A stretch of 26,663 bases of DNA from a virus, in the IMG/VR virus record IMGVR_UViG_3300046455_000050, positions 1 through 26,663 of that record. One strand, written 5' to 3'. The translations under genes were made by a program, and so were the position numbers. Positions 2 through 26,467 of the stretch are shown piece after piece (position 1 is the stretch's first letter; the number at the start of each line of letters is the position of its first letter). The notes under the pieces were generated by a model. It was not told the DNA's origin. It ran no database searches and saw only the letters and a program-made list of their open reading frames with translations.

Positions 2-841
2 GCTTACCAACTCGGTAAGAAGTCGGCAGAAGCCAAGCGTGAACTTGAGTACCACTTCGTGGGCCTCTCGCAGAACGCTGCAGTCGGTGCAGAAGCTACG
101 GCACGCAAGTTCGGTAACGTGTGGGGCGCTGATGCTGGTTCGGCAAAGATCATCGCTGCTGCGAACACGATCGACAAGACGGCAACCCCGGCTGCCCTGA
201 CGGAAGCTGACATCCTCTCGGCAAACCAAAAGCTGTACGAGAACGGTGGTGAAGCTAAGTTCCTGATGATCAAACCGGCTGACTCGCTGATCGTTGCGGG
301 CTTCTCGGCGGCTGCTGGCCGTATGCGTGACTTCGGTGGCGATAAGGCCATCGTCAACGTTGTGGACCTGTACGTCTCGCCTTAACCCCATGGGGCGAGT
401 AAAACCTTTTCTGATTGACTTGGAAACCCTGCAGAGGGCAACAAGGGGCAAGCAAGCGAAAGCTGTGCAGCCTGAACGACTAAGCGAAAAGGACCCGCAA
501 GGGTATGCGATAGTCTGACCTCCCATATAACTAACGAAGTGGGAGAGGGATTGCCGAAGAGCATCCCCGCCTAGGGTAGTACGCTAGGTCATTAAAGTAA
601 CAGAATGTTTGGTGAACAAAAAGTTGTCATCAACCGCTTCATGAAGGCCGACAGCGCCCTGCTGTTCGATCCGGCTAACTGGAAGATCAGCACGCTCCGC
701 GCATGGTTCCGTAACCCGCTGGCTATCACGGGCGATGGACACCGTGAGCAGATCGTTGGTGAGTTCGGTCTCAAGCACGTCAACTATGGTGCCTCGGGTG
801 CCGTTATCGGCCTGACCGGCACGAACCCGCTGGTCCCGTAA
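2..841 (+). CDS. Major capsid protein (5'-truncated by window; exons <2-382 and 608-841)
   Basis: This is the C-terminal part of the phage major head protein. The reading frame is open from base 2 and runs to codon CCT at 380-382, where an in-frame TAA follows at once. It resumes at TTT 608 and ends at TAA 839-841. Joined, the text reads VDLYVSP-FGEQKVVINRFM, which matches the continuous C-terminal pattern of the DUF5309 (SU10-type) capsid family, with later hallmarks LLFDP and a GEFGLKHVN-like strand near the end. The break is explained by a group I intron (383-607). The GTG at 59 is not the start, because the family-like sequence continues upstream of it. Without splicing the protein would lose its last 78 residues. 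Family assignment rests on remembered sequence pattern, not on a search; a capsid role is likely, and the intron joint is well supported. Confidence 0.82.
383..607 (+). ncRNA. Group I self-splicing intron in the capsid gene
   Basis: A compact 225-nt group I intron without an internal ORF. The 5' exon end CUCGCCU (376-382) pairs with an internal guide GGGCGAG (393-399), giving the canonical U-G wobble at the splice site (U382-G393). P7 is visible as GACUA (478-482) with UAGUC (511-515), inside sequences resembling the conserved R (GAACGACUA) and S (GCGAUAGUC) elements. Between them is P8, ACCC (493-496) and GGGU (501-504) closed by a GCAA tetraloop. A GAAA-capped hairpin lies at about 457-466. 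P9 is CUCCCA (520-525) with UGGGAG (540-545). The last intron base is G607, as the mechanism requires. The intron length keeps the capsid frame. It opens with UAA, so unspliced message stops exactly at the junction. Confidence 0.93.
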
Positions 842-896
842 GCAATATGGACCTAGCCGGTATCTCTATGCCGGTAGTTTCACCTTAGTTGTACTC

Positions 897-916
897 AGGG
901 GCCCTACGGGGCTCCT
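897..916 (+). terminator. Hairpin after the capsid gene, weak terminator candidate
   Basis: AGGGGCC (897-903) can pair with GGCTCCT (910-916), including one G-U pair, around a 6-nt loop. The following bases are only moderately T-rich, so this may be an attenuator, a processing hairpin or nothing functional. A second small hairpin (CCGGTAT with ATGCCGG, about 857-873) precedes it. Confidence 0.3.
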
Positions 917-979
917 CCAAATTCCTTTACGCCCTGCGCTGCTCCTACTCTCGGTAGCGTGGGGCCTTTTCTCGCCCCT

Positions 980-1276
980 ATGTCCCATCAATATCACGAC
1001 ATCAACCGCTCGATCAGTGAGAACACTGATGGGCACATTATTGAACGCGTGCAACACATTCCCCAAGGATTCCTCGAGCGCCTAAAGGCAGAACGAGACG
1101 AATCCACCAGTGTCCGCGAGACGGAACACCAACGTGTTGCATCCATCCCCACCTGTTTGGTCGAGAAGTGGATCTCCGAAGGCTATGACTTCTGGAACGA
1201 ACCTGTCTCGAAGATCGTTGCCAAGTTGAAGAACGAAGGCCTCGAGTACTTCCTCACGACCGCTAAGAGCGTCTAA
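980..1276 (+). CDS. Conserved small phage protein downstream of the capsid gene
   Basis: A 98-residue soluble, charged protein. I chose ATG 980 over the in-frame GTG at 959 because the extra N-terminal residues read through G/C-rich hairpin sequence; neither start has a strong Shine-Dalgarno. The C-terminal half (VASIPTCLVEKW, then a basic helix and the ending TTAKSV) resembles small proteins that often sit between capsid and adaptor genes in podoviruses. No enzymatic motif, membrane segment or signal peptide is visible. Its stop overlaps the next start as TAATG at 1274-1278, which suggests translational coupling with the adaptor. A structural or assembly role is inferred only from position. 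Confidence 0.7.
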   Translation: MSHQYHDINRSISENTDGHIIERVQHIPQGFLERLKAERDESTSVRETEHQRVASIPTCLVEKWISEGYDFWNEPVSKIVAKLKNEGLEYFLTTAKSV

Positions 1277-1887
1277 TGAACTTCAAACAAGTCCGCGATA
1301 AGGTCGCCGGTCTGCTCAACCGTAATGACGCCACCGATGCTCTCCTCAAGGACTTCGTTTCGATGGCGCAAGGCCGGATTGAGCGAACCCTCCGCACTCC
1401 AGGCCAAGAGCGCATCAGTGTATCCACAGGGAACGCATTGGCCTCTGAGGACGAGATTATCTTACCTCAAGATTTTCTCTCGCTTAAGCACCTGTACTCC
1501 GGGGACACCCTGCTGTCCAACAAGGATCTCTCGCACTTCCTTAGGCTCCCAAAGAGCACAGGGACTCCCCAGTACTACTGCCGCATTGGTGGTTCCTTCC
1601 TGGTCAAGCCCGCAGTTCCCTTGGGTACCTCGGTCTACATGATCTATTACGGTGCCCAACCTGAACTGGTCAATGACACCGATACCAACCTCTTCACCAC
1701 GGTCCTCGCTGACCTGTTGATCTACTGCGCTCTTGCCTTCGCTAGTGATTACTTCGTTGATGATCGTGTCACTGGCTTCGAAGCTCGCTACGAGATGCTC
1801 TTCGGTGAAGTCGTTGAGCAAGCACGCCTGACGGATACCGACCAAAGCACACAGGCCATTGAGCCTTCATACGACTCGGAGTATTAA
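1276..1887 (+). CDS. Head-tail adaptor protein (SU10-type adaptor-like)
   Basis: A 203-residue protein that probably joins the portal to the tail in the mature virion. It starts with a helix (MNFKQVRDKVAGLLNRND), followed by MAQGRIERTLRTPGQE, an EIILPQDFLSLKHLY strand region and a C-terminal helical pair containing FASDYFVDDR and FEARYEMLFGEV. This order (an N-terminal helix carrying a QGRIERTLR-like arginine motif, a central LP.DFL strand, then a late alpha-hairpin) is what I associate with phage head-tail adaptors. Length is ordinary for the group. It is coupled on both sides by TAATG overlaps, to the 98-residue protein before it and the tail fibre after it. Function is inferred from pattern and gene order. 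Confidence 0.68.
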   Translation: MNFKQVRDKVAGLLNRNDATDALLKDFVSMAQGRIERTLRTPGQERISVSTGNALASEDEIILPQDFLSLKHLYSGDTLLSNKDLSHFLRLPKSTGTPQYYCRIGGSFLVKPAVPLGTSVYMIYYGAQPELVNDTDTNLFTTVLADLLIYCALAFASDYFVDDRVTGFEARYEMLFGEVVEQARLTDTDQSTQAIEPSYDSEY

Positions 1888-3551
1888 TGGCTACTAGTTT
1901 CTTCAACGGGGAATCGACGTTCCCTGAGAATAACACCACGGATCAACTGATTGACGCACTTCAAGCGCAGTTGGCTGACTCCGCAGCAGAGTCTACGGCT
2001 GCCCAAGCGGCTGCTGTGTCTGCCCAAGCTTCCGCTAGTAACGCTGCGATCTCCGAGGCTAACGTAGCGGGCCTCTCCCAGGCTGCTACGGATACCCTCT
2101 CGCAAGCTACCACGGCTTTGGCTGCTGCTAACGCTGCTATTGCCTCTACGGCTGCTTCGGCAACCACGGCAACCAATAAGGCTGCTGAGGCTTCCAATAG
2201 TGCCCTCGGTGCTGCGAACTCCGCAACGGCTGCGGGGATTAGTGAGACAAACTCCGCAGCCTCGGCTGCTGCTGCGCTGGCATCTAAGAATGCTGCGGGG
2301 ACTTCGGAGTCCAATGCTGCTACTTCGGCTGCTGCTGCCCTCTCGAGCAAGAATGCTGCGGGTACTAGTGAGACGAATGCGGCTGCTTCAGCAACTGCAG
2401 CGAACACCAGTAAGAACAATGCGGCAACCAGCGAGACCAACGCGGCCTCTAGTGCCACTGCGGCTAACGCGAGCAAGGTGAACGCAGGGACTAGCGAAAC
2501 GAATGCTGCTGCTAGTGCTGCTGCTGCCTTGGTTAGCCAGAACGCTGCGGCTGCTTCGGCAACCCTGACCACGAACCAGACGGCATACCTTGCTGGTAGG
2601 AACCGGATCATCAACGGTGCCTGCAGTGTTGCCCAACGTGCCTCCGTAAGTGTCACAGGTGCTCAGGTGTACGGCCAATGCGACCGTTGGACTGGGATTA
2701 TCTACGGCAGTGCTGGTGGGGCACAGACCCTAGACCAAGCGGCTATCGCTCTCAACAGTGTCAATCGCTTCTGGGTACGCGAGACCGTAACAACCCCTGT
2801 CACGTCCCTAACTGGCAGTAACGGGTGGGGCGGGATTCAGCAGCTTATTGAGGGCTTCAACAGCCACGATCTTCTTGGCAAGCAAGTCACTATCTCCTTC
2901 TGGTTCGTCTCCAACGTAACTGGGAATTTCTCAGTGGCTTTGCGAGATGCCCCTACTTCCTTCTCGTACATCACTAGTTTCGCGGCAACGGCTAACGTCC
3001 CTGTCAAGGTGTCTTTCACGACTCCCACGCTCCCCACGGGGCTGAGTGTTCCTTACAGCACTGCCGCAGGGCTGGTCCTCTCCGTTGGTGCCTTGTCAAC
3101 CGGGACTCTTCAGTGTGCTACAGGCTCACTGAACACATGGGCCTCTGGGACCTTTGTGAGTGCCCAAGGTGCCACGAACTGGGGGACCACCAACGGTAAC
3201 TTCATTGCTATCACTGATGTTCAACTTGAGGAAGGATCGGTAGCAACCCCCTTCGAACGCCGTCAGTACGGTGAGGAATTCGCGCTGTGTCAGCGGTATT
3301 ACGAGGCAGGGCAGACAAACGTAATGCAGTCCCCAAGTACGGCATCTGCTGTCGGCTCTCAGGTTAAGTTTTCTGTGGCAAAGCGCTCCCCCCCTACGAT
3401 AGCCCTAGTCCGTCAATTTTCCTCCGGGGCTATCCCGGCAACTAGCTTGTCCGCGTCTCCAACTTCTGAGAGCGTCCTTGTGTACGTAGTAACAACTGCT
3501 GGCGGGGTAATGCAGGCGCAAGATGCCTGGACAGCGAGCGCGGAACTCTAA
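1887..3551 (+). CDS. Tail fibre / receptor-binding protein with tandem coiled-coil repeats
   Basis: A 554-residue fibre. Residues 1-30 are a short N-terminal segment, probably for virion attachment; there is no obvious T7 gp17-type anchor. Residues 31-230 are extremely Ala/Ser/Thr/Asn-rich and contain five tandem 21-residue units (117-221), each three heptads long, typical of a trimeric fibre shaft. From residue 238 (GRNRIINGACSVAQR) a globular part begins with the NRIING..(S/A)..QR pattern common at the start of phage fibre distal domains. It contains a jelly-roll-like region and the QLEEGSVATPFERR motif near 450. The far C-terminus is probably the host-contact tip. The gene is followed at once by a fibre-chaperone-like gene, which supports the call. 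Confidence 0.85.
   Translation: MATSFFNGESTFPENNTTDQLIDALQAQLADSAAESTAAQAAAVSAQASASNAAISEANVAGLSQAATDTLSQATTALAAANAAIASTAASATTATNKAAEASNSALGAANSATAAGISETNSAASAAAALASKNAAGTSESNAATSAAAALSSKNAAGTSETNAAASATAANTSKNNAATSETNAASSATAANASKVNAGTSETNAAASAAAALVSQNAAAASATLTTNQTAYLAGRNRIINGACSVAQRASVSVTGAQVYGQCDRWTGIIYGSAGGAQTLDQAAIALNSVNRFWVRETVTTPVTSLTGSNGWGGIQQLIEGFNSHDLLGKQVTISFWFVSNVTGNFSVALRDAPTSFSYITSFAATANVPVKVSFTTPTLPTGLSVPYSTAAGLVLSVGALSTGTLQCATGSLNTWASGTFVSAQGATNWGTTNGNFIAITDVQLEEGSVATPFERRQYGEEFALCQRYYEAGQTNVMQSPSTASAVGSQVKFSVAKRSPPTIALVRQFSSGAIPATSLSASPTSESVLVYVVTTAGGVMQAQDAWTASAEL
2235..2549 (+). repeat. Five tandem 63-bp in-frame repeats in the tail fibre shaft
   Basis: Five head-to-tail units encode residues 117-137, 138-158, 159-179, 180-200 and 201-221. 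Each begins G/A-(I/T)-S-E-(T/S)-N and ends with a K/Q-(N/V)-N/A-A type sequence. Units differ at several positions in DNA and protein, so they have diverged since duplication. Such repeats can change copy number by recombination and so alter fibre length. Confidence 0.85.
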
Positions 3552-3553
3552 AG

Positions 3554-3976
3554 ATGACTTATACACTCAACCCGCAGGGTGGCGTGGTTCGTGATGCTGA
3601 TGGTGCCTTCATCCCCAAGGACCCCCAGAACACCGACTATGCCACCTATCTCGCATGGGTCGCTCTGGGAAACTCTGCAACCGTCCAAGCACCTGTAGTA
3701 GACCTCCAAAAGGTTCTCACGGACACCGTGCAGTCCCTCATGGACACCAAGGCCCAGTCGTATCACTACGATGACCTGACAACAGCCGTAACGTACGCAG
3801 AGGAACCCTCGGTCCCTAAGTTCCAAGAGGAAGGCCAAGCGTTCCGTGCGTGGCGTTCTCAGGTGTGGGCTACGGCCTACTCGATCCTCGGGGAAGTCCA
3901 AGCGGGACACCGTAGTTTCCCCACGGTTGCTGAGGTCCCTGGGCTGCTCCCTCCGTTCCCCTTAGACACACCATGA
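3554..3976 (+). CDS. Tail fibre assembly/chaperone-like protein
   Basis: A 140-residue protein starting two bases after the tail fibre stop. The N-terminus (LNPQGGVVRDADGAFIPKDPQNTDYATYLAWVALGN) and the C-terminal half (Y-DDLTTAVTYAEEPSVPKFQEEGQAFRAWRSQVW) match the layout of phage proteins with a DUF4376-like region: a helix, TY(A)..S.P.F..EG.A...WR..VW. These usually lie directly behind fibre genes and act as fibre assembly chaperones or minor fibre components. No membrane segment or catalytic motif is seen. Its end overlaps the next gene as ATGA at 3973-3976. The role is inferred from this family resemblance and position. Confidence 0.68.
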   Translation: MTYTLNPQGGVVRDADGAFIPKDPQNTDYATYLAWVALGNSATVQAPVVDLQKVLTDTVQSLMDTKAQSYHYDDLTTAVTYAEEPSVPKFQEEGQAFRAWRSQVWATAYSILGEVQAGHRSFPTVAEVPGLLPPFPLDTP

Positions 3977-4194
3977 AGTACCTCTGGAACCTCCTGGTCT
4001 CCCTTGACCAGTTCATCAACACGTTCCTCTTAGGGGACCCTGACGAGACTCTCTCTAGCCGTGCCGCCAAGGCAATGCTTAAGGGGAAGCGTTGGGGCTG
4101 TGTGCTCTGTCGCCTCCTCGATTATGTGGAGAAGAATCACTGCCTGAAGTCCCTTGAGGTTGATGAGGGCTCACAGGCAATTCTTAAAGACTAG
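3973..4194 (+). CDS. Small conserved phage protein of unknown function
   Basis: A 73-residue protein starting within an ATGA overlap with the fibre-chaperone gene. It has an amphipathic N-terminus (MKYLWNLLVSLDQFINTFL), then GDPDETLSSRAAKA and a Cys/His-bearing part (GCVLCRLLDYVEKNHCLKS) that might bind a metal. The pattern GDPDETLS(S)R....W.CVLC.LLD recurs, as I recall, in small phage proteins near lysis or fibre genes; their function is not known to me. No clear transmembrane helix is present, so it is not an obvious holin or spanin. Confidence 0.65.
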   Translation: MKYLWNLLVSLDQFINTFLLGDPDETLSSRAAKAMLKGKRWGCVLCRLLDYVEKNHCLKSLEVDEGSQAILKD

Positions 4195-4201
4195 GATCAA
4201 T

Positions 4202-4666
4202 ATGACATGGTGTGAATACGCCGAAAAACAAATCAAGGGTTATGAGGGGTGTGAGCTTCACGCATACCCTGACCCTGCAACTGGTGGCGCACCGTGGACC
4301 ATTGGTTATGGTGCAACAGGCCCTGGGATCTCCAAGGGAACCGTGTGGACCCAAGAGCAAGCTGATGTGGACCTGCGGGCCCGTGTGGTTTCCCTTGGTG
4401 CCTTCGTGGACTCAGTTGTGAAGGTCCCGGTTTCCGATGAACAGAAGGCTGCCCTGATCTCCTTTGCATACAACGTGGGCAAGGGGGCTCTCAAGGGCTC
4501 CACGCTGCTCCTGAAGTTGAATGCAGGGGATGTCGAAGGGGCCTCCAAAGAGTTCCTTAGGTGGAATAAGGCCGCTGGAAAGGTGATGGCTGGTCTGACG
4601 AAACGAAGGGATGGGGAGCGGGCATTGTTCATCCTCGGCTCTAACTTCACAAAGGCTGCAGCATGA
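4202..4666 (+). CDS. Endolysin, T4-type lysozyme (glycoside hydrolase family 24)
   Basis: A 154-residue muramidase that cleaves the N-acetylmuramic acid to N-acetylglucosamine bond of peptidoglycan at lysis. The family catalytic set is visible as Glu15 (in YEGCELHAYPD), Asp24 and Thr33 (PWTIGYG). The later hallmarks DEQKAALISFAYNVGKGALKGSTLL and the C-terminal LTKRRDGERALF are also present. ATG 4202 was chosen because AGGA lies 6-9 bases upstream and the protein then begins at the family's usual first helix; an in-frame TTG 48 bases upstream runs through the preceding gene. There is no signal-anchor segment, so release should depend on a holin, and candidates follow immediately. Confidence 0.93.
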   Translation: MTWCEYAEKQIKGYEGCELHAYPDPATGGAPWTIGYGATGPGISKGTVWTQEQADVDLRARVVSLGAFVDSVVKVPVSDEQKAALISFAYNVGKGALKGSTLLLKLNAGDVEGASKEFLRWNKAAGKVMAGLTKRRDGERALFILGSNFTKAAA

Positions 4667-4887
4667 GCGATCACGACAACCGGATTGCTCGTCTGGAGTT
4701 CCGTGCTGATGCTACGGACCTAGACCTCAAGGACCTGAAGAGGAACCAAGAGGTCTTCGGAGACAGTCTCTCAGCCATCAAGAATACCCTCCTACAAATC
4801 AAGTACGCCCTCTACGGGGGTGGTGTTGTGTTCGCACTGAGCACACTGGGCCTCAAGGAAACCATCCTGAAGCTCGTCCTACATTGA
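4663..4887 (+). CDS. Coiled-coil plus single transmembrane protein, holin-associated (XhlA-like) candidate
   Basis: A 74-residue protein overlapping the endolysin stop as ATGA. Residues 6-45 form a charged heptad-rich helix (IARLEFRADATDLDLKDLKRNQEVF...) and residues 48-68 a hydrophobic segment (YALYGGGVVFALSTLGL). A coiled coil followed by one C-terminal membrane helix is the architecture of XhlA-type lysis accessory proteins. The lysis context supports this, but holin activity cannot be decided from sequence alone. Confidence 0.68.
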   Translation: MSDHDNRIARLEFRADATDLDLKDLKRNQEVFGDSLSAIKNTLLQIKYALYGGGVVFALSTLGLKETILKLVLH

Positions 4888-4898
4888 GATAAAACAAA

Positions 4899-5078
4899 AT
4901 GGAATTTCTGAACCGTTTCAAAGAGCCCTCGACCTGGGCCGGTATCGCTGTCCTCGCGCAACTCGTGGCACCCCAACTGGGTCTCCACGGGGACGTTGGT
5001 GGTGCAGCTACGCAGATCGGCGCGGCTATCGCGGCTGTCGCTGCTGTGGTCCGTGCTGAACAAGCCATCACGAAATAA
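4899..5078 (+). CDS. Putative holin (59 residues)
   Basis: This small gene starts at ATG 4899 and stops at TAA 5076-5078. The product begins MEFLNRFKEPSTWAGIAVLAQ, a pattern recurring in small phage membrane proteins near endolysins (short amphipathic start, EPSTWAG, then hydrophobic helix). A second hydrophobic stretch rich in Ala/Ile/Val follows (residues 36-50) before a charged end. It probably spans the inner membrane and controls the timing of endolysin release. Its position just after the endolysin and coiled-coil protein supports the call; whether this or the previous gene is the main holin is open. Confidence 0.7.
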   Translation: MEFLNRFKEPSTWAGIAVLAQLVAPQLGLHGDVGGAATQIGAAIAAVAAVVRAEQAITK

Positions 5079-5086
5079 GGAGCCTT

Positions 5087-5410
5087 ATGGCGAATATCTC
5101 GACTTTCGCAGGGGCTCAGGTCAAGGGCAGCATTCCCCTCGTGGGTGAAGTGGCTACCTACAACATCACAGGGGCTGCCAAGTTGATCAAGGTGGGCCCT
5201 GGTCGTATCGGTAAGATCACCACGATTGTGGCTGGATCTACGGCTGGCACGATCAATGATGTTGCTACCACTGGTGCGGCTGCAGTTGGCAACCAGATTG
5301 GGGTTATCCCGAATACGGCTGCAAACGTAGTGGAATACAACTGGCCGTTCGATAAGGGGCTGGTGATTGTTCCGGGTACGGGCCAAGTGTTGGCTGTGAG
5401 CTTCTTGTAG
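5087..5410 (+). CDS. Small beta-rich structural protein, possible decoration or fibre protein
   Basis: A 107-residue protein with a strong Shine-Dalgarno (AAGGAG, about 6 bases before ATG 5087). It is Gly/Ala/Thr/Val-rich with alternating hydrophobic strands (KLIKVGPGRIGKITTIVAG, AAAVGNQIGVIP, KGLVIVPGTGQVLAVSF). This resembles small beta-sandwich proteins encoded at the ends of podovirus structural operons. No Cys, signal peptide or membrane helix is present. It is the last gene before the terminator. Function is inferred; decoration, fibre and head completion are all possible. Confidence 0.65.
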   Translation: MANISTFAGAQVKGSIPLVGEVATYNITGAAKLIKVGPGRIGKITTIVAGSTAGTINDVATTGAAAVGNQIGVIPNTAANVVEYNWPFDKGLVIVPGTGQVLAVSFL

Positions 5411-5420
5411 TACGAAAGAC

Positions 5421-5468
5421 AAAAAGACCCCTCAGGTTTCCGTTATGGATTCCCGAGGGGTCTTTTTT
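5421..5468 (+). terminator. Strong rho-independent terminator closing the structural operon
   Basis: AAAAAGACCCCTC (5421-5433) pairs with GAGGGGTCTTTTT (5455-5467), and the stem ends in a run of six T (5463-5468). Because the left arm is A-rich, it can also work for leftward transcription and so isolates the structural genes from the convergent rep/par genes. Confidence 0.93.
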
Positions 5469-5640
5469 GTAACGCTAGGATTCGGTTTAGCGTTACCAAT
5501 ACCGAACGCTAACCTGTGGATAACTCTACTGTGGATAACTCCGTAGCGTTACAGAATACTCACACGTCCCCAGTCTAGCGAACGGTATCAGTAACGCTAA
5601 ACCCCGTAGCGAACGGTATGAGTAACGAAACAATACTTTT
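5469..5640. other. Plasmid-type replication origin: iteron-like repeats and two DnaA boxes
   Basis: Two perfect DnaA boxes (TTATCCACA read on the minus strand) lie in the same orientation at 5515-5523 and 5530-5538, 15 bp apart. Around them the 9-mer GTAACGCTA or its complement occurs at 5469-5477, 5488-5496, 5544-5552 and 5591-5599; the first two form an inverted pair. A 21-bp direct repeat with one mismatch lies at 5576-5596 and 5607-5627, each containing TAGCGAACGGTA. A related copy TACCGAACGCTA is at 5500-5511. An AT-rich stretch follows (about 5625-5660), running to the 3' end of the Rep candidate gene. Repeats, DnaA boxes, AT-rich region and adjacent initiator gene are the standard parts of an iteron plasmid origin. 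Confidence 0.82.
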
Positions 5641-5645
5641 AATAC

Positions 5646-6224
5646 TTAAGTTAACAATATGCGTGGACTCGACCCCGGAAGATGAGGGAGGAAGCTGTCA
5701 TCCTGATCTGGAACATCAGAGACCGCCACCTTGGTTCTGAGCACGCCCGCCTCAGGGTCCCAGACAAAACCGTCTCCAGGGATGATCTCGCAGTCCACGA
5801 AGGCTTCTGCGTTCGTCTGGTCCCCTCGGATCGCCTCTGCAACCCCCTCGACCACCTTGCGGAACTTTGCCGGTACGTAGTCGATTACCACGGTACAGAG
5901 CACTCGGGTCCCCATACGTACATCCATGCGTTCCCGAGCCACGTAGGTGCTACTACGCTTCCCCTTCCCTACGGTAAGCACCCGGAGCATCTTGAACGCC
6001 TCAAGGGTCTTCAGGGACGCGGTTACGGTCGTCTGTGACATCCCGGTCATCTCCGCGAGCTTGCGCTGTCCAGGCCAGCTTTCTCCGGTCTCGAAGTCTG
6101 CATGGGCTTTGATGGCTTGCCACACCCCGAAGGCACTCATTCCGATCTGAGCAGCGAGTCCCGAGGAGAAGAGGTCCCGTTGCATGGTCTGGTAGGTTGT
6201 ATCGATCTTGGCCTGAGAGGACAT
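5646..6224 (-). CDS. Winged-helix replication initiator candidate (Rep)
   Basis: A 192-residue protein with a very strong Shine-Dalgarno (AAGGAGGG) before ATG 6224. Residues 18-85 (LFSSGLAAQIGMSAFGVWQAIKAHAD, then GESWPGQRKLAEMTGMSQTTVTASLKTLEAFKMLRVL) form an HTH_36-type winged helix like those in plasmid and phage initiator proteins; the recognition helix is near residues 60-75. The rest has beta-strand character and no catalytic motif. It is the last gene of a leftward set with the partner and ParA genes and ends just before the origin-like repeats. That placement makes replication initiation the best inference; a transcriptional regulator is the main alternative. Confidence 0.66.
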   Translation of the reverse strand: MSSQAKIDTTYQTMQRDLFSSGLAAQIGMSAFGVWQAIKAHADFETGESWPGQRKLAEMTGMSQTTVTASLKTLEAFKMLRVLTVGKGKRSSTYVARERMDVRMGTRVLCTVVIDYVPAKFRKVVEGVAEAIRGDQTNAEAFVDCEIIPGDGFVWDPEAGVLRTKVAVSDVPDQDDSFLPHLPGSSPRILLT

Positions 6225-6544
6225 CAGTAGCCCTCCTTCTCAGCCTTGGCGATCTCAGCGTCCGCAGCAGCCTCCAGGGCAACCGGAACGAACTCCCTGA
6301 GGTTCTTGAAGCGCCCAGAGGCCTTGAGGTGGTTGAGCTTCATCTGGACCCTCTTGGGGACCTCGTAGCCGACCTTTACCCACTCATCATGTCCATCCCA
6401 AGGTTTCTTTCTTTCTAGATTACTTTCTAGGTTTCTTTCTTCCTCGATTTCTAAGTTTCTAGATTCAAGACTTGCAGGATTGGCGGCCCCCTTCGCTGCA
6501 ACACCCTTGGGGATCGCGAGCATATCCAGGGACCCCTTAGGCAT
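6224..6544 (-). CDS. ParA-partner, putative small centromere-binding protein
   Basis: A 106-residue basic protein. I chose ATG 6544, which overlaps the ParA stop by 8 bases, over an in-frame start at 6583 inside parA. The N-terminal half is extended and charged (SLESRNLEIEEERNLESNLERKK). The C-terminal half (VKVGYEVPKRVQMKLNHLKASGRFKNLREFVPVALE) has a strand followed by two helices, as in ribbon-helix-helix partition proteins. It sits directly behind parA, as ParG/ParB-type partners do. Its coding DNA contains CTAG motifs like those in front of parA. The stop overlaps the Rep start as TGATG. The partner role is inferred from context and the short fold pattern; a ParB of HTH type is not seen. 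Confidence 0.62.
   Translation of the reverse strand: MPKGSLDMLAIPKGVAAKGAANPASLESRNLEIEEERNLESNLERKKPWDGHDEWVKVGYEVPKRVQMKLNHLKASGRFKNLREFVPVALEAAADAEIAKAEKEGY
6410..6465. repeat. CTAG-centred repeat cluster inside the ParA-partner gene
   Basis: CTAG occurs at 6415-6418, 6427-6430 (12 bp apart) and 6459-6462, each within TTTCTAG on the plus strand, with a degenerate copy TTTCTAAG at 6448-6455. The motif AATCTAGAAAGAAA on the minus strand also occurs in the cluster in front of parA on the plus strand. On the protein level it produces the repetitive RNLE/SNLE residues. It may be a partition or autoregulatory site placed within the gene. Confidence 0.5.
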
Positions 6545-7181
6545 GAGCTTTCTCCTGACGAATAGGCTTCTCAAACTGTCCAACTAGGAAGGTTGCCACG
6601 TCATCAATAATGATTGCCCCAGTCCCTCTGTTGATTTCCTGGAAGGTCCGCCCGTCGATCATGCTCTCCCAGTACCCATTGAGCTTGGGAACGGCGTGGG
6701 GAATCACAGGACCCATTGCAGCCAGCCTTCTGGTGGCCGTGAGGGACACAGCTTTCCCATTGGTTTCGTTGAGCAGGAAGAAAAACTTCTTGTGTTCCTT
6801 CTCACACAGTTCGACGGTGCTGGCTGCTGCTCGGATGTCGTGAGGGGAGTGCTTGGCAGGGATGATGACCAGATCGGCCAGCTTGATCGCCGTCCGGTTG
6901 ATCTCATGGTCCTGCGGAGGGGTGTCGATGATGCACCAGAGGTACCCGAGGGCTTCCATCTCTGCGTGCTTCCTTGCGAGGTGCGCTGCGTCCTCCACGG
7001 GTGCGAAGGCGGGCGTCAGGTCCTTACGGTCGTTCCACCAAGCGGAAAAGGACCCCTGAGGGTCCAAATCCATAGTCACCACTGGCCCTTTCCCCATGGC
7101 CTCGAGTGCCACTGCGAAATGCGCTGAGTGTGTGGTCTTGCCGCTTCCGCCCTTGAGACAGGAAAACACTACGGTCTTCAT
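6537..7181 (-). CDS. parA: ParA-family partition ATPase
   Basis: A 214-residue Walker-type ATPase that would position low-copy DNA over the nucleoid. The deviant Walker A motif KGGSGKTT is at residues 10-17 with the signature Lys10; the A' motif DLDPQG is at 38-43; Walker B IIDTPP is at 84-89. There is no N-terminal HTH, so it is a small (type Ib-like) ParA. ATG 7181 is preceded by AGGAG. The gene is followed by a small DNA-binding candidate and the Rep candidate, and preceded by CTAG-rich repeats, which together make a normal par locus. Orphan ParA relatives (MipZ, chromosome proteins) are less likely in this setting. Confidence 0.9.
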   Translation of the reverse strand: MKTVVFSCLKGGSGKTTHSAHFAVALEAMGKGPVVTMDLDPQGSFSAWWNDRKDLTPAFAPVEDAAHLARKHAEMEALGYLWCIIDTPPQDHEINRTAIKLADLVIIPAKHSPHDIRAAASTVELCEKEHKKFFFLLNETNGKAVSLTATRRLAAMGPVIPHAVPKLNGYWESMIDGRTFQEINRGTGAIIIDDVATFLVGQFEKPIRQEKAHA

Positions 7182-7190
7182 TCTTATTCT

Positions 7191-7250
7191 CCTAGAAAGT
7201 TATCTAGGAAATAATATAGAAATCTAGAAAGAAATCTAGACTCCTAGAAA
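7191..7250. promoter_or_regulatory. Candidate par operator/centromere: five CTAG motifs upstream of parA
   Basis: CTAG lies at 7192-7195, 7204-7207, 7224-7227, 7236-7239 and 7244-7247, with a degenerate TATAGAAA between the second and third. The main spacings are 12 bp. Most are followed by GAAA or AGAAA on the plus strand. Arrays of short phased motifs in front of parA are typical operator-centromeres for ribbon-helix-helix partners. The parA Shine-Dalgarno (AGGAG) overlaps the first copy, so binding here could also repress translation or transcription. Confidence 0.6.
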
Positions 7251-7252
7251 AA

Positions 7253-7462
7253 TCAGTTAGGGTCGCAGTTCGTGAACTTCCCATAGTTCCTACAGGTATA
7301 ACTCGGGGCCATTACAGGTTGCGCTCTGTATTGTGTTCGGTTCATCGAAGCTTGCATCTGCCCCGCAGCATCAGACCACGCCTGGGCCTGTTGGGGCGTC
7401 ATGGAACCCGCACATCCCGAGAGGGCACTGAGGGCCCCGAGTGCTACCAGAAGTTTGTTCAT
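7253..7462 (-). CDS. Small lipoprotein
   Basis: A 69-residue precursor beginning MNKLLVALGALSALSGC: basic start, hydrophobic core and lipobox L-S-G-C, with lipidation expected at Cys17. The mature part is about 53 residues, Gln-rich (MTPQQAQAWSDAAGQMQASM), with two later Cys (YTCRNYGKFTNCDPN) that could form a disulfide. AAGGA lies 7 bases before ATG 7462. It lies in the plasmid-like module, far from the lysis genes, so an o-spanin is unlikely. Lipoproteins encoded by temperate phages can block superinfection at the outer membrane; that role is only a possibility here. Confidence 0.75.
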   Translation of the reverse strand: MNKLLVALGALSALSGCAGSMTPQQAQAWSDAAGQMQASMNRTQYRAQPVMAPSYTCRNYGKFTNCDPN

Positions 7463-7556
7463 TTTTTGTCCTTCGCTGATAATGGCTATTAGCAGTCTTG
7501 TATTTAATCTCTCAGATCCCCGTACTGCCTACTGCGTCCCGCCTCGGAGCCTTGTA

Positions 7557-7850
7557 TTACTTGGCCTTTAGTTCCTCTAGGTACTCATCGGCCAACTGGT
7601 TCGCGGCCTTCTCGAAGAACACCTGCATCGATCGGATGCCCCCTTTGTTCTCCATGAGCCACTGGATCTTCAGGTACAACTCAGGCTCTATCTTCAGGTT
7701 GTAGCCTCTCCGTCCAGCTTCCTCCACAAGCTCCGGGTTCTCCCAGGGGTACCGAGCCTTCCTCGACTGTTCCACGCGGACCTGCTCTTTTAGCTTCTGG
7801 ATCTCCGCCAGGGCTTCTGCCAACTTCTCTTCTGCGGTGATGTTCGCCAT
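7557..7850 (-). CDS. Small coiled-coil protein with ribbon-helix-helix-like C-terminus
   Basis: A 97-residue protein. ATG 7850 is preferred, with GAGAG just upstream; the longer in-frame start at 7907 would run into the preceding gene. Residues 3-32 form a heptad-rich helix (TAEEKLAEALAEIQKLKEQVRVEQ), and residues 50-95 read YNLKIEPELYLKIQWLMENKGGIRSMQVFFEKAANQLADEYLEEL, a strand plus two helices resembling Arc/CopG-type DNA-binding folds. In a plasmid module such a protein could control copy number or partition. I do not recognise a named family. Confidence 0.62.
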   Translation of the reverse strand: MANITAEEKLAEALAEIQKLKEQVRVEQSRKARYPWENPELVEEAGRRGYNLKIEPELYLKIQWLMENKGGIRSMQVFFEKAANQLADEYLEELKAK

Positions 7851-7903
7851 CTCTCTATACCTTGCTGTGGTGGTTAGCTTGTAACCGAATAATACAAGTC
7901 TGT

Positions 7904-8134
7904 TCAACCTCGCGCAATGCTATATACCTCTTCTAGTGTTGCGCATCTAACACAGCGGCCTAAGTCCTCCCAGGCATGGTCAAAGGTGTTGTATTGGCAC
8001 TCAACCTTGCCCGCAATGATCAGATGGAAGCCGAATTCATCGGCTGTTTGCTTGAGGGTAATCTGAGTATTATCAGACAATACAGAGGTCAGGAGCAGCA
8101 TGTTCTTGGCAGATTCCGTTACAGGTTGTTGCAT
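7904..8134 (-). CDS. Hypothetical 76-residue protein
   Basis: Not recognised. The protein has an N-terminal helical part (ESAKNMLLLTSVLSDNTQITLKQTADEFG) followed by strands (FHLIIAGKVECQYNTFDHAWEDLGRC) and a C-terminal helix. It contains three Cys but no clear metal site. ATG 8134 has no good Shine-Dalgarno, so the start is uncertain (next Met at residue 12). It is the first gene of the leftward rep/par-side group, and a palindrome lies about 55 bp upstream. Confidence 0.5.
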   Translation of the reverse strand: MQQPVTESAKNMLLLTSVLSDNTQITLKQTADEFGFHLIIAGKVECQYNTFDHAWEDLGRCVRCATLEEVYSIARG

Positions 8135-8186
8135 GGCGGGGCATTTATTACTGCTAACGAGGCAGTGGTGTGAATATTACGCCGTC

Positions 8187-8196
8187 CATGTACATG
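8187..8196. promoter_or_regulatory. Palindrome CATGTACATG, possible operator
   Basis: A perfect 10-bp palindrome between the recombinase stop and the leftward 76-residue gene. A TAATAT hexamer, a plausible -10 box for leftward transcription, lies at 8174-8179, so a bound protein would sit in the promoter spacer. No strong -35 box is visible. Confidence 0.3.
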
Positions 8197-8224
8197 ATTT
8201 GTTTTTTTTAAGCAGGTGTTGCGT

Positions 8225-9013
8225 TTACCTTACAGCGGAAAGAAGTTCCTCATCGGAAAGGTGCGCGTAACGGAGGGTAGTCTGTACATTTTTGTGACCA
8301 AGAAGCCGCTGAACCACCACCACATTCTTAGTCTTTGCAAGGGTCCGCGTGGCTGCGGTGTGCCTCAAGGTGTGCAACACGAAATCATCATCAGCATCAA
8401 GCCCCATGGATTCCTTCAGCCTTCCCCAAACGGCCCTGAGGTGCCCGAGGTTGACATCGAACACACCTTTTTGTAGGGAAGCCTTAGCGCGTTCTGAAAG
8501 GGGAATCGACCGGGCCCCCTTGGTCTTCGAGGTCCACAAGCGTACCCAATCTCCATCGATGTCCTTCTCCTTCAGGTTCAGCAGTTCCCCTCTGCGCATC
8601 CCGGTATCCAACAGGACCGTAACGAACCTAGCGATCTCATGCTCACCCCACTGCTCGAGCAGAGCCAGCATGGTTTCCTCTTCCGTCTGACTAATCCAGC
8701 GGACCCGTGAGTTGTCCTCGGATCTCCAGGTGATCTTGGGCATCTTCGCAATCCAATCACGGTCATGGGCGTACTTCAGGACGCTGTGTACGTTCGTGAG
8801 CTTGCGGTTGATCGTGGCGTCCTTCAGGGTTCCTTCCATCGAATCCACGAAGGCGTCAATGTGGATCGTCTTCACTTCCTTGATAGGGAGGTCACCGACA
8901 ACCTTGATGAAAGCTTCCACGTTCGTGATGGCAGTCGTGCAGTAGGCTTTACCGAGCCACAAAGGCTTCTTGGAGGTCTGCAGGAGTTCCTTGAGGGTGC
9001 TAGGTGCTTTCAT
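8225..9013 (-). CDS. int: Tyrosine recombinase (integrase/resolvase)
   Basis: A 262-residue site-specific recombinase. Residues 1-95 are an N-terminal helical core-binding domain. The catalytic domain shows the full set: Arg140 in TGMRRGE, Lys165 in the beta-hairpin SKTKGARSIPL, His214 and Arg217 in HTLRHT, His240 in LLGHKN, and Tyr249 in TTLRYAH. The enzyme therefore looks intact, though it lacks the extra arm-binding domain of lambda-type integrases. ATG 9013 follows GGGGA. In a plasmid-like module it could resolve plasmid dimers, as Cre does in P1, or integrate the phage; no attachment site could be identified in the window. Confidence 0.92.
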   Translation of the reverse strand: MKAPSTLKELLQTSKKPLWLGKAYCTTAITNVEAFIKVVGDLPIKEVKTIHIDAFVDSMEGTLKDATINRKLTNVHSVLKYAHDRDWIAKMPKITWRSEDNSRVRWISQTEEETMLALLEQWGEHEIARFVTVLLDTGMRRGELLNLKEKDIDGDWVRLWTSKTKGARSIPLSERAKASLQKGVFDVNLGHLRAVWGRLKESMGLDADDDFVLHTLRHTAATRTLAKTKNVVVVQRLLGHKNVQTTLRYAHLSDEELLSAVR

Positions 9014-9060
9014 GAGGGTCCCCGGTGGTTCGCTGTTTGGTATGAAAGGATAGTACCGTA

Positions 9061-9078
9061 TTGTATAACCTTATACAA
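9061..9078. promoter_or_regulatory. Inverted repeat operator candidate over the recombinase promoter
   Basis: TTGTATAA (9061-9068) and TTATACAA (9071-9078) form a perfect 8-bp inverted repeat with a 2-bp spacer, 48 bp upstream of the recombinase ATG. On the minus strand TTGTAT and TACTAT are spaced by 17 bp, a weak sigma70-like promoter whose -35 and spacer are covered by the repeat. This is a classic repressor layout, but no cognate regulator is identified. Confidence 0.5.
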
Positions 9079-9088
9079 GTACTATTTG

Positions 9089-9120
9089 AAAAAATACCCC
9101 ACCGTGTGAGGGTAGGGGTA
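9089..9120 (-). terminator. Rho-independent terminator for the leftward operon
   Basis: Read on the minus strand, TACCCC (9115-9120) pairs with GGGGTA (9095-9100), extended by ACC/GGT pairing with one bulge, followed by six T (9089-9094). It lies five bases after the stop at 9125 and separates the DNA-metabolism operon from the recombinase gene. Confidence 0.85.
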
Positions 9121-20039: not shown

Positions 20040-22544
20040 TTAAGCGAAAGCGTATTGGGACTCGAGGATGCTATTGAGATCCAAGGAACCACGCGGGGGA
20101 ACCATCAGCTTGTCTAACTCCTTGATGAGCTTGGCGACCTTCTTGGCCTCTGCTTCATCGGTGGAACCTTCACCAGTCACGATCAACTCAGCCCGTGCCG
20201 TATCCAGAATGTCTTCCAGGGGGTCACGGCCTTCGTACATCTCGACCATGCTCTTACGGACAATCATCGAGAAGGCGTCCATCTGGTTCGGTAAGGATGC
20301 AAAGGAGTCGTGGATCAGAAGGAAACTATCGATCCCTTCGGCCTTCGAGTTCTGCACGACCAACTGAAGGTGGGCTGCATCGAAGCTATGGATGAAGTTA
20401 GGGCTGATGCTGCTGCGTTGCTTGTGGGCGTTGAGGTCCTTAGAGAAACCCGACTGGACCTTGGGCATGTACTTCGTAGAGACGTTGAGGGCCTTGTTCC
20501 AGAGGAAGGTATGAATGCGGGTGAACGTGGGCTTGTAGTACGCGTTGAGCACAGGGAACCCCATAGGAGTAGTCCAGCGAACCGGAAGATTAGCCCGAGC
20601 CATGATGCCAGCGATGGACTTCAGGAACTCCATGACCAGCGGGGCACCCTTCACGGTCTGCTTGATGCCAGTCATGTTGTGTGCTGCCAGATAGCGGGCT
20701 ACCTCCATCGATTCGACCCAGTTGTCCTTGGTGACCCCGAAGTGAGCACGGGATTCATCATCCACATCCATGATGTCTTCGAATAACTGATCAGCAAAGC
20801 CCGAGACTTCCGAGCCGTAGCCGTAGGTCATCACGTTCCGCTTGGTAACCTTGCGGTCGATACCATAAGAAGACCACAGTTCAGCGAACTTACGGACCTT
20901 CTCATCCTCATGGGTCAGGTCAGCTTCGACCAAGGGACCCGAGATAGCAGCGACAGCCGCATAGACATCCTGCGGGAGATCCGAGGGCAACAGGTTCACC
21001 AGAGCACCACCGTGAGCATCCCGCATGATTGCGGAGAAGTGTTGGATACCAGAGCACGAACCATCGATAGCGATAGGCAGGTGGCAGCGGTAGCCAAGGG
21101 GGTCCTTCAGGTAACCCGAGAGGGCCACACAGGCAGCAAGGAAACAGAACGGGCTGTCTGCGGTCTTCCAGAGGTCCAAGGAGTTGATGGGGTCTTTGGC
21201 AATCGCCTGGATCATCTCGAGGTTGTCTTCGGTCCACTGAACACGAACATCGAACGGTGACTTATCCAGAGCACGGCCATTCACCTTCATGGCATTGGTC
21301 GTAGCCACGTTCCACTTCAACCACTTCACGCCAGTCTCAGTCAGCACCTCACCATCAGCAAACTCGAACAATCCCTTGCAGTAGTCAGCACGTTGATGGT
21401 TGAAGCCGGGTTTTGCATACACACGGCTACGCCAGTCCAGAACGTGGGGCTGATAGAAGCGGGGCTGTTCGACCAGGAGCTTGGCTTCCTCAAGGTCACG
21501 ATCAACCACAGCGTACTTCGCGTTGCTGCGCTTGTTGTCCTTGCGGATAGCCCACTTCTCTTCCTGCGTTGCATCCTTCTTCATCACCTTGCGGGGCCCC
21601 GGCAGCTTACCGACCGGGAGACGCATCTCATGGCAGAACGTGAGTGCAGAGAGGACCGTTGCGTTGATACGCAAGGCTACCTCTTGGATACCGTTCAGAG
21701 CCCCGACAAAAGGTGCTTGTTTCTCGATAGCATCGGCAATCAACTTCTTAGCCATCGGGTTAAAGGTAGCAGCGATCTTTACAGTTTTTGCCACACGGAC
21801 ATCGTTGTATGCCCCAGTGTCGAAGGCAACCCAAGGGTTCGGAACGGTGACCATGGCCTGATAGACCGGGGTTGTCCACTGTTGGCGCTCTTTAGTCTTC
21901 TGAAGTGCCGCATGGGCAGCCTCAGTGAACGACAGGCGCAGTTGGACTTCCCCGGTCTCATCATCGGTAGCCTCGGTGTGCTCGAAGAGATCGGTTGATT
22001 GTTGCGCAATGAAGAACAATGCAGCCCCAATGCTAACCATACCTTCTGCGTCTACACCCGGCTCCGGGAATTGCTCAAGGAGGGTGTTTGCTGCTTCCAG
22101 CTTGGCGCGGCGCTTCATGGAGACGTACTTCTTCTCCTGCTTCTTGAATTCCTTGGCATCCGTGTTCTTCAGACGCTCTGCAGCAATCGCAACGCGGACC
22201 TCGAAACCGACCGTCTCATACAGGGACGTGAGGGTCTCCTCGGACGTAGCGGTGTTGAAGGAAGCCTTGAGCGTGATACCAGCCAGCAGCGTGTGATCGA
22301 GGATCTCCATGGCCTTGAAGTGCGCGGGGCGGTTGTTAGATCCTTCCAGGGCAGCGAAGTAGGCCACGTGTAACGCTTCGGTCATCTTCGGCAATGCGGA
22401 GTCGAACAGGCGTTCTTCAGCCTTGCTCAGGTCACCCATGCTATGGGCAAACTCAGCGTTACCTTCGTAGCGCTCTGCACCCTTCGCCAACATGCGCTCT
22501 TCAAATGCAGCCTGGGCTTCGTAGTTCAGTGCAATTTCGGTCAT
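20040..22544 (-). CDS. T7-like single-subunit DNA-dependent RNA polymerase
   Basis: An 834-residue phage RNA polymerase (T7 gp1 has 883). Catalytic motifs match T7 closely: IAIDGSCSGIQHFSA (metal Asp, T7 D537), RKVTKRNVMTYGYGS (T7 K631 and Y639), and LLIHDSFASLP (metal Asp, T7 D812). The specificity-loop region lies before SSISPNFIHSFDAAH, and the C-terminus ends YAFA, echoing the T7 FAFA end. ATG 22544 is chosen because GGAG lies seven bases upstream; an in-frame TTG at 22556 is less likely. It heads the leftward operon behind a host-type promoter and should transcribe later phage genes from its own promoters. Confidence 0.96.
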   Translation of the reverse strand: MTEIALNYEAQAAFEERMLAKGAERYEGNAEFAHSMGDLSKAEERLFDSALPKMTEALHVAYFAALEGSNNRPAHFKAMEILDHTLLAGITLKASFNTATSEETLTSLYETVGFEVRVAIAAERLKNTDAKEFKKQEKKYVSMKRRAKLEAANTLLEQFPEPGVDAEGMVSIGAALFFIAQQSTDLFEHTEATDDETGEVQLRLSFTEAAHAALQKTKERQQWTTPVYQAMVTVPNPWVAFDTGAYNDVRVAKTVKIAATFNPMAKKLIADAIEKQAPFVGALNGIQEVALRINATVLSALTFCHEMRLPVGKLPGPRKVMKKDATQEEKWAIRKDNKRSNAKYAVVDRDLEEAKLLVEQPRFYQPHVLDWRSRVYAKPGFNHQRADYCKGLFEFADGEVLTETGVKWLKWNVATTNAMKVNGRALDKSPFDVRVQWTEDNLEMIQAIAKDPINSLDLWKTADSPFCFLAACVALSGYLKDPLGYRCHLPIAIDGSCSGIQHFSAIMRDAHGGALVNLLPSDLPQDVYAAVAAISGPLVEADLTHEDEKVRKFAELWSSYGIDRKVTKRNVMTYGYGSEVSGFADQLFEDIMDVDDESRAHFGVTKDNWVESMEVARYLAAHNMTGIKQTVKGAPLVMEFLKSIAGIMARANLPVRWTTPMGFPVLNAYYKPTFTRIHTFLWNKALNVSTKYMPKVQSGFSKDLNAHKQRSSISPNFIHSFDAAHLQLVVQNSKAEGIDSFLLIHDSFASLPNQMDAFSMIVRKSMVEMYEGRDPLEDILDTARAELIVTGEGSTDEAEAKKVAKLIKELDKLMVPPRGSLDLNSILESQYAFA

Positions 22545-22582
22545 GGCGTTCTCCAAGTAAGTTCGTGTTTTCGATGGAATTG

Positions 22583-22611: not shown

Positions 22612-22701
22612 CACAGAACTGTACAAAAAATTTCAGAGACGATGATCCGTTTCTGCAATGGTGCACAAGTTGGGAAAGTTATTGATTTGAAACGATATTT
22701 A

Positions 22702-22717
22702 CTAGATGTTATCTAGG
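22702..22717. promoter_or_regulatory. CTAG palindrome related to the par operator
   Basis: CTAGAT (22702-22707) and ATCTAG (22711-22716) form an inverted repeat with a GTT spacer. The stretch GTTATCTAGG (22708-22717) is identical to 7199-7208 in front of parA. It may be a second binding site of the partition partner or another regulator. Confidence 0.5.
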
Positions 22718-22780
22718 CGCCTCCTTGGGGCACCAAATTCGACCCCTATATGTAGACCAAACCGGCCAAGATCTCGTCCA

Positions 22781-22806
22781 GAAAAAGTCCTTTAAAATCA
22801 AGGACT
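22781..22806 (-). terminator. Leftward intrinsic terminator-like hairpin in the control region
   Basis: AGTCCTT (22786-22792) and AAGGACT (22800-22806) form a perfect 7-bp stem with a 7-base loop; on the minus strand it is followed by TTTTT (22782-22786). It would end a short leftward transcript initiated between here and about 23100, suggesting a small RNA or attenuation. Confidence 0.5.
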
Positions 22807-22844
22807 CTCCCAACTTGTGCACCATAGAAGAGAGACACACAATC

Positions 22845-22853
22845 TTGTACAAC
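22845..22853. promoter_or_regulatory. TTGTACAAC motif, site 1 in the control region
   Basis: Palindrome TTGTACAA followed by C. The same 9-mer occurs at 23131-23139 (plus) and, on the minus strand, at 20026-20034; all three lie in intergenic regions in front of operons. Possible operator or phage promoter part. Confidence 0.4.
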
Positions 22854-22989: not shown

Positions 22990-23124
22990 AAGAATCACAG
23001 AGGAGCCTCAGGGCTCCCCCTACAAGACTCATCTGATACCTGCGCCCACTGGCACCTACTTTTAGGGTCCCTCAGATGATCTCGGCACTGCCATTCGGTG
23101 TCTTGGGGTTCCTCTGTGATTCTT
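22990..23124 (+). ncRNA. Structured leader RNA upstream of nrdB
   Basis: Nested complementary segments form a multi-stem RNA of about 135 nt. P1: 22990-23004 with 23110-23124 (15 perfect bp). P2: CCC(TA)CAAGAC 23018-23028 with GTCTTGGGG 23100-23108 (9 bp and a 2-nt bulge). P3, stacked directly on P2: TCATCTGA 23029-23036 with TCAGATGA 23072-23079. A 20-nt insertion lies on the 3' side between P3 and P2 and contains TGCCA, complementary to TGGCA in the P3 loop, a possible pseudoknot. A small GAGCC/GGCTC hairpin can compete with the end of P1. It is 48 bases before the nrdB start, so it may be a cis-regulator. No known riboswitch is recognised. Confidence 0.62.
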
Positions 23125-23130
23125 TTCCGT

Positions 23131-23139
23131 TTGTACAAC
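23131..23139. promoter_or_regulatory. TTGTACAAC motif, site 2 before nrdB
   Basis: Second exact plus-strand copy of TTGTACAAC, 33 bases before the nrdB ATG and just after the structured leader. The following bases ACACTGCAATACA partly resemble those after the minus-strand copy at 20026-20034 (ACAATACA). Confidence 0.4.
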
Positions 23140-23171
23140 ACACTGCAATACACTTCGAGAGAGTGAGAGAG

Positions 23172-26001: not shown

Positions 26002-26102
26002 GCGTCTCTTGTGTAGTGGTAGCACGCGCCCCCGCAAAGGGTAACTAAGCTGCGGCTTGAAACCGTGGTGAAGAGGTGAGGGTTCGATTCCCTCGAGACC
26101 TA
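26002..26102 (+). tRNA. tRNA-like gene with atypical anticodon region
   Basis: A clear T-arm GAGGG-TTCGATT-CCCTC (26078-26094) is followed by GAGACCT, pairing over GTCTC with GCGTCTC at 26002-26008 (mismatch at the second pair). The D-arm GTGT-AGTGGTA-GCAC is normal. Between D-arm and T-arm lie about 53 bases instead of the usual 22-40. Two anticodon-like loops are possible: CCGCAAA (anticodon GCA but with C at position 33 and a poor stem) or CTTGAAA (anticodon UGA, stem TGCGG/CCGTG, after a roughly 24-base insertion). CCGCA and TGCGG also pair with each other. No CCA is encoded. Identity cannot be assigned; it may be decayed or specialised. Confidence 0.6.
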
Positions 26103-26252: not shown

Positions 26253-26268
26253 CACTTCGATTGCACGT

Positions 26269-26342: not shown

Positions 26343-26467
26343 TTCTGTTTCCCCTACAGAGCTATTTCAGCCTCTGTGATCCCTCTAGGCTACGCTGGTC
26401 CCTCCAGATCCTCGGAGCCCCTAAAAGGCCCCTGTAGAGCACCTAGAATCCCTATTCCCACATAAGC

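Follow-up and report, generated by a model that had tools for sequence, protein, structure and literature searches.

The 26,663-base virus record IMGVR_UViG_3300046455_000050 of the IMG/VR collection (the window, analysed at its full length) carries, beside its structural genes, a compact minus-strand locus with a putative plasmid origin of replication (ori), a predicted replication initiator (Rep), a ParA ATPase with a candidate centromere-binding partner (ParB) and a tyrosine recombinase (Table 1). These parts had been described, from the DNA letters and their open reading frames (ORFs) alone, in an original prediction that placed them between two terminators as a plasmid maintenance module of a phage with a T7-like replisome and RNA polymerase (RNAP). 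Terminator scans, repeat analyses and profile searches bore out this inventory: both bounding terminators, the origin-like repeats with DnaA boxes, the winged-helix Rep, ParA with its neighbouring partner gene and the recombinase were recovered, as were the RNAP (RNA_pol, 1e-94), a T7-type primase-helicase, PolA, endonuclease I (Phage_endo_I) and an exonuclease. For the proposed lipoprotein, the ORF is present and its family match is weak. The module had also been said to point away from the structural genes; instead, the structural (+) and module (-) genes converge on the terminator at the left edge of the locus.

Table 1 Features of the putative plasmid-maintenance locus and its flanks in the window.
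Feature	Position	Strand	Basis and remarks
Intrinsic terminator common to the converging structural (+) and module (-) genes	5421-5467		Inverted repeat of 21 nt, 86%; terminator scan; left edge of cassette
Putative plasmid ori	5468-5643		TAACGCTA/TAGCGTTA iterons, two DnaA boxes, AT-rich stretch beside rep
Rep, predicted winged-helix replication initiator, 192 aa	5646-6224	-	HTH_36 1.7e-7, above Pfam cut-off; PHROG replication-initiation families
ParB/ParG-like centromere-binding candidate, 106 aa	6224-6544	-	ATG at 6544, overlaps parA end; model; gene position
Second centromere-like repeat array	6401-6465		Within parB coding sequence; three YCTAGAAA sites
ParA, ParF-type (type Ib) Walker ATPase, 214 aa	6537-7181	-	No N-terminal DNA-binding domain; profiles, structure matches
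First centromere-like repeat array	7187-7250		Directly upstream of parA; repeat analyses
Lipoprotein-like ORF, accessory, 69 aa	7253-7462	-	LPAM_1 0.0036, below cut-off
Conserved ORF beside recombinase, 97 aa	7557-7850	-	In both relative types; right edge of cassette; comparison of relatives
ORF conserved in some relatives, 76 aa	7904-8134	-	Comparison of relatives
Tyrosine recombinase, 262 aa	8225-9013	-	Phage_integrase 1.8e-21; in plasmid-type and integrase-type relatives
Possible host promoter, weak (TTGTAT-N17-TACTAT)	9050-9078	-	Upstream of recombinase; aligned across clade; consensus scan did not flag it
Intrinsic terminator between upstream replisome genes and recombinase-cassette genes	9097-9117	-	Terminator scan; aligned in relatives

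Putative origin, initiator and partition genes

Downstream of rep, the putative origin contains TAACGCTA iterons, the repeat TAGCGAACGGTATnAGTAACG at 5576-5596 and 5607-5627, and two perfect DnaA boxes (TTATCCACA, 5515-5523 and 5530-5538) where 0.15 would be expected by chance. The plasmid-type initiator, iterons and DnaA boxes looked for in a phage-plasmid are present, at the level of sequence. At each of the 15 rep loci examined, the rep end had one or two DnaA boxes nearby, and the same ori architecture, with differing iterons, recurs after each related rep gene and not at the integrase-type loci described below. Grouped by Rep type, TAACGCTA iterons occur in the window and in relative G004, TAGGTGTC iterons in G001, G003, L091 and L102, GTTCA/GTGAAC types in L101, L083 and L086, and a GCCGCT type in G005. 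The window and G004 Reps are ~51-54% identical and have the same iterons in phages that are otherwise unrelated; Rep and its matching iteron appear to travel together. An AlphaFold2 model of Rep (mean pLDDT 72) shows a winged helix over residues 29-99, and its best aligned chains include 4pql ('N-terminal domain of DNA binding protein', Z 9.9) and 4pt7 ('structure of initiator', Z 9.5). Dif-like sequences (GATAA-N6-TTATGTCAA or close) stand beside the ori of several related cassettes (L083:6680-6700, L086 ~1715, L042 ~10460, L040 ~14490 and L091 ~7110), which suggests multimer resolution by the host XerCD recombinases in those cases; beside the window ori, the search for such a site returned chance-level matches only, though the sites are visible by eye in non-T7 relatives.

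ParA matches AAA_31 (2.8e-13) and the PHROG family 'ParA-like partition protein' (1.1e-29), shows 44-47% identity with ParA from sequenced plasmids, and has plasmid ParA/ParF (5u1g and 4dzz) as its nearest solved structures over full length. A ParA of ~200-215 residues that lacks an N-terminal helix-turn-helix (HTH) and is closest to ParF, with a repeat array upstream of its gene, is the arrangement of type Ib ParABS systems and is found here. The partner gene directly follows parA in those ParA contigs that retain the region, including A5; a search of its product against phages gave no matches. The model of this protein (modest confidence, pLDDT 64) has a disordered N-terminal arm and then, after residue 54, a ParG-like strand-helix-helix, with ParD antitoxins as the nearest, weak matches, and we regard it as a candidate ribbon-helix-helix (RHH) ParB of the ParG kind. 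ParA, the ParB candidate and the repeat arrays together make up the kind of partition system that phage-plasmids carry.

All six YCTAGAAA sites of the window fall in the two centromere-like arrays, three upstream of parA (7191-7250) and three inside parB (6412-6463), and 8-mers common to the region upstream of parA and the parB start exceeded 1000/1000 shuffles in 12/12 contigs. The arrays of G001, the closest ParA relative (ParA 92%, ParB 78%), carry CCAAGRAA (3 and 2 sites) where those of the window carry YCTAGRAA (4 and 3), and each genome is without the other's motif in both arrays. Since both arrays change motif together, a single protein, most likely ParB, would read both. The array upstream of parA is probably also an operator, and to our knowledge a repeat array inside a parB coding sequence is unusual. 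Relatives of the accessory lipoprotein-like ORF are placed elsewhere in some sister genomes (G007, G008 and G010).

Exchange of the cassette and its spread among phages

We compared the locus among relatives, which are viral contigs found through RNAP, ParA or the small recombinase; they are metagenome contigs, several of them near-copies. Their common flanks are the recombinase and the ORF at 7557 on one side and the terminator and structural genes on the other, and between these flanks three types of content were found: ParA-ParB-Rep as in the window (type I), an unrelated ParA with an RHH protein and one of two Rep types (type II), or a tyrosine integrase of ~430-460 residues, the stop codon of which directly abuts the terminator (type III). 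The left terminator has a counterpart in G008, where it follows the integrase stop codon, and in G001 and G003, where it follows the ori. After clustering at 95% nucleotide identity there were seven par-rep clusters and four integrase clusters, none with both. Reciprocal searches gave the same picture, with no match to the large integrase in long plasmid-type contigs and no match to ParA, ParB or Rep in two complete-looking integrase-type genomes, and the entire contigs of integrase-type G007 and G008 held no perfect DnaA box. The par-rep genes and the integrase are, then, colinear and mutually exclusive, the pattern of exchange known from cluster A mycobacteriophages. An ArdA-like antirestriction candidate (2e-5, below the Pfam cut-off) was also observed in the integrase-type G008 (L047:13663-14091).

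These comparisons place the exchangeable unit at about 5468-7550, comprising ori, Rep, ParB, ParA and the centromere-like repeats. The original prediction had proposed 5469-9120 as a discrete insertion; the part up to about 7550 is indeed exchanged, and the whole cannot be one unit, as the recombinase and the ORF at 7557 are conserved in relatives without plasmid genes. Being present in both types, the small recombinase is not the swapped part, and it and the lipoprotein are at most candidates for a part in plasmid function. That close relatives with the same flanks replace the segment by another partition cassette or a large integrase favours the phage-plasmid lifestyle that the prediction had put forward. 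Type II partition genes (ParA with a HicB/Arc-like RHH partner, at L101:6751-7720 and in L102) pair with either of two Rep types, so that rep and par also recombine independently. Within the T7-type clade the two histories also disagree: the window ParA is closest to G001, whereas the window recombinase has just 68% identity with that of G001 and is nearest (85-89%) to recombinases from phages with other types of cassette. Two to three label changes on the recombinase tree, not forced by well supported branches, suggest repeated swapping, and the clade appears to switch between plasmid life and chromosomal integration.

Related cassettes also occur outside this clade. G002 is N4-like, since it encodes a virion RNA polymerase of 3616 residues (PHROG score 2602) and, beside ParA, a small RNA polymerase; G006 is related to it (39 ORFs in common at 60%) and has a 3834-residue protein. 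G004 and G005 are phages of ~39 kb whose helicase is of the DnaB type; a terminase and head-closure proteins of its own were found in G005. Apart from ParA (53-83%), ParB and, in most cases, Rep, G002 and G004-G006 have little in common with the window. Homologous cassettes in unrelated N4-like and ~39-kb DnaB-type phages indicate that the cassette moves between phage lineages. A ParA-ParB cassette, in most cases with a Rep that can be recognised, is found in contigs of ~75-78 kb, namely L054-L057 (G002), L058-L061 (G006), L084 and L092; the N4-like assignment of G006 is by kinship and its 3834-aa protein, and that of L084 and L092 by size and neighbourhood only.

Probable plasmid lifestyle and alternative explanations

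From sequence comparison, the segment very probably serves to maintain the prophage state of a temperate podophage that has replication enzymes and an RNAP of the T7 type and persists as a plasmid; this phage-plasmid reading is well supported. From the parts and their arrangement we infer how replication and segregation may proceed. Rep would bind the iterons (5468-5643) and fire a plasmid origin together with the DnaA of the host; ParB would bind the repeat arrays upstream of parA and inside parB; and the ParF-type ParA would segregate the circular genome to daughter cells, giving persistence as a low-copy plasmid. The ori-rep-parB-parA cassette (~5468-7550) is a mobile unit that replaces the integrase of sister phages; the small tyrosine recombinase beside it would most likely circularise the genome or resolve multimers. 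The right-hand terminator and the weak promoter upstream of the recombinase would allow transcription of the module by the host polymerase at times when that of the phage is inactive.

Several observations weigh against this reading. The Rep model fits generic winged-HTH regulators equally well as an initiator, and tblastn of Rep against PLSDB at 1e-3 gave no relative; the ParB candidate had no family match in profile searches. Two pattern scans (RNAP and ParA alignments) of 84,980 bacterial and archaeal genomes for hosts or lysogens returned no relative. As the original prediction had said of the window, no CI-like repressor was found among its scanned ORFs, nor was one found among 63 small ORFs of G008 and G003; the repressor scan yielded one winged-helix HTH_39 protein. 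Circular-looking assemblies and contig overlaps, moreover, also arise from terminally redundant lytic virion DNA.

The small recombinase could itself be the real lysogeny enzyme, with the phage integrating and Rep and Par only stabilising a transient or excised form. This is unlikely. The protein is intact, phage-integrase-like (phage integrases such as that of HP1 and Xer recombinases are closest among solved structures) and present in both relative types. Sisters with the same recombinase nevertheless have a second, much larger integrase exactly at the cassette position, which suggests that the small enzyme does not suffice by itself. An attP-like segment did not emerge, and flank alignment for the recombination site of the small recombinase gave only promoter-like and coding conservation. 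Because it is kept in both lifestyle types, genome circularisation or multimer resolution is its most likely role.

A role of the cassette in the lytic cycle or in a carrier state, with Rep-ori as an accessory lytic origin, ParA and ParB placing or segregating replicating DNA, and no true lysogeny, is in our judgement very unlikely. Such a role would accord with a phage that already owns a T7-type replisome and whose scanned ORFs yielded no repressor, and with homologous cassettes in N4-like phages, which are generally regarded as lytic. However, interchange of the cassette with a large integrase at one locus makes most sense for prophage maintenance, and both DnaA boxes and a centromere system of the ParF/ParG type are plasmid features coupled to the host. 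That 'Rep' is instead a MarR-like regulator with the iterons as operators, in the manner of the MarR-integrase modules put forward for other temperate T7-like phages, is highly improbable: Foldseek matches of its model are mostly MarR/ArsR-type regulators (none with E < 0.001) and the T7-like phage LUZ100 has a MarR-like regulator adjoining the integrase (PMC10134795), but profile matches favour replication initiators, the integrase is not accompanied by this gene, and the repeats are always accompanied by DnaA boxes.

A ~200-nt hairpin (22616-22846, -; z -5.5) lies upstream of the RNAP gene, between it and the ribonucleotide reductase genes, and had no Rfam match. Across nine relatives, 95% of pair cells are standard and 19 pairs have changed on both sides, a covariation unmatched by any shuffle (shifted controls gave 37-48%). 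Within conserved stems, ~18 bp are hypervariable yet perfectly covarying, and hairpin alleles cross lineages, the G001 stem being common to G008 and G010 and not to its nearest relative G003. A similar long inverted repeat (z -4.7) precedes the RNAP gene of pVPan1 (L025:19089-19292), a plasmid record discussed below. As no CI-like repressor emerged from the window or the 63 small ORFs, the hairpin may act as an RNA switch or as an RNA determinant of immunity; it could equally well be a site of RNase III processing, part of a lytic origin or an inhibitor of the host's RNA polymerase. It is quite unlikely that one ori-rep-par cassette with repeats in parB makes supposedly lytic phages of T7-type, N4-like and DnaB-type lineages into plasmids, with the repressor of the T7-type members replaced by this RNA hairpin and its variable stem serving as immunity or incompatibility type.

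Relation to known phages and significance

The window combines an adaptor, RNAP, PolA, primase-helicase and endonuclease I, and relative G008 encodes ejection and virion structural proteins. Minus-strand genes run from the RNAP (20040-22556) through endonuclease I, ThyX, primase-helicase, PolA, exonuclease and MazG to the tyrosine recombinase, ParA and Rep, and plus-strand genes occupy both window ends: at 59-5410 the structural genes, and at 23076-25845 a pair of long ORFs whose sequence suggests the two parts of a ribonucleotide reductase. The single-subunit RNAP (~31-32% identical to RNAPs of T7-group phages) and T7-type replisome are those of Autographiviridae; the transcription in one direction that marks this family is not seen, with replication genes on the minus and structural and nucleotide-reductase genes on the plus strand. 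With genes on both strands, 'T7-like' here refers to enzymes only and implies no placement in Autographiviridae. A search for T7-type promoters as strand-specific repeated 11-mers in the window gave none that was prominent. We also observed a tRNA-like gene at 26002-26102 (+) in which ~31 nt are inserted behind the anticodon arm (35 bits in Rfam; missed by ARAGORN) and, by eye, an apparent second tRNA-like fold near 26267-26343.

Phage P1 has an iteron/DnaA origin, a ParA-ParB-centromere system and the tyrosine recombinase Cre, which resolves multimers and circularises the genome. P1 and its relatives thus join the same parts to phage genes as the window does, but the likeness is at the level of family folds only: the window has a type Ib rather than type Ia par system, no repressor among its scanned ORFs and T7-type transcription. 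TP228 ParF-ParG is alike in its ParA without N-terminal HTH, small partner downstream (in the window a candidate RHH protein) and repeats upstream, to which the window adds the second repeat array inside the partner's coding sequence. Closest in pattern are the cluster A mycobacteriophages (RedRock, Miko and others), ~20% of which carry parABS, accompanied in some by RepA and an origin, in place of and colinear with the integration cassette of their relatives, and in which one ParA family is found with diverse ParBs (PMC7157519). Unlike the window, these are siphophages of Actinobacteria, whereas the window belongs to a podophage with T7-type RNAP and replisome, a ParF/ParG-type par, an iteron origin with DnaA boxes and a small recombinase that plasmid and integrase forms alike retain. 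Phages with ParA/ParB have also been reported from glacial viromes (PMC4490671). T7-type RNAP phages with integrase or lysogeny genes include LUZ100, vB_PaeM-G11, Pasto and HTVC019P (PMC10134795; PMC10142737); in contrast to the window, these are integrase-based, and the available parts of these sources describe no partition genes or plasmid replicon. Two circular plasmid records of 44-48 kb represent phages with a T7-type RNAP, pVPan1 (Vibrio panuliri) and pCFD-1-5 (Sphingobium). pVPan1 resembles the window in its tyrosine recombinase (32% identical) and its long hairpin upstream of the RNAP gene, but the RNAPs of both records are only ~30% identical to that of the window, and pVPan1 has the actin-like ParM and pCFD-1-5 no annotated partition genes. 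That such distant T7-type RNAP phages are deposited as circular plasmids speaks for the phage-plasmid reading.

T7-type phages are textbook lytic phages, and we found no description of T7-like or N4-like phage-plasmids with this swap in the open literature, a search that left aside subscription papers and preprints. Sister genomes that differ at this one locus, with par type I, par type II or an integrase, form a natural set in which the question is directly testable, and a cassette of ~2 kb that brings its own origin is short enough for a minireplicon. If the reading is true, screening for phage therapy would be affected, as it looks for integrases and not for par or rep genes. If homologous cassettes let T7-type and N4-like phages persist as plasmids, lifestyle in these phages would be a swappable module rather than a trait of the lineage.

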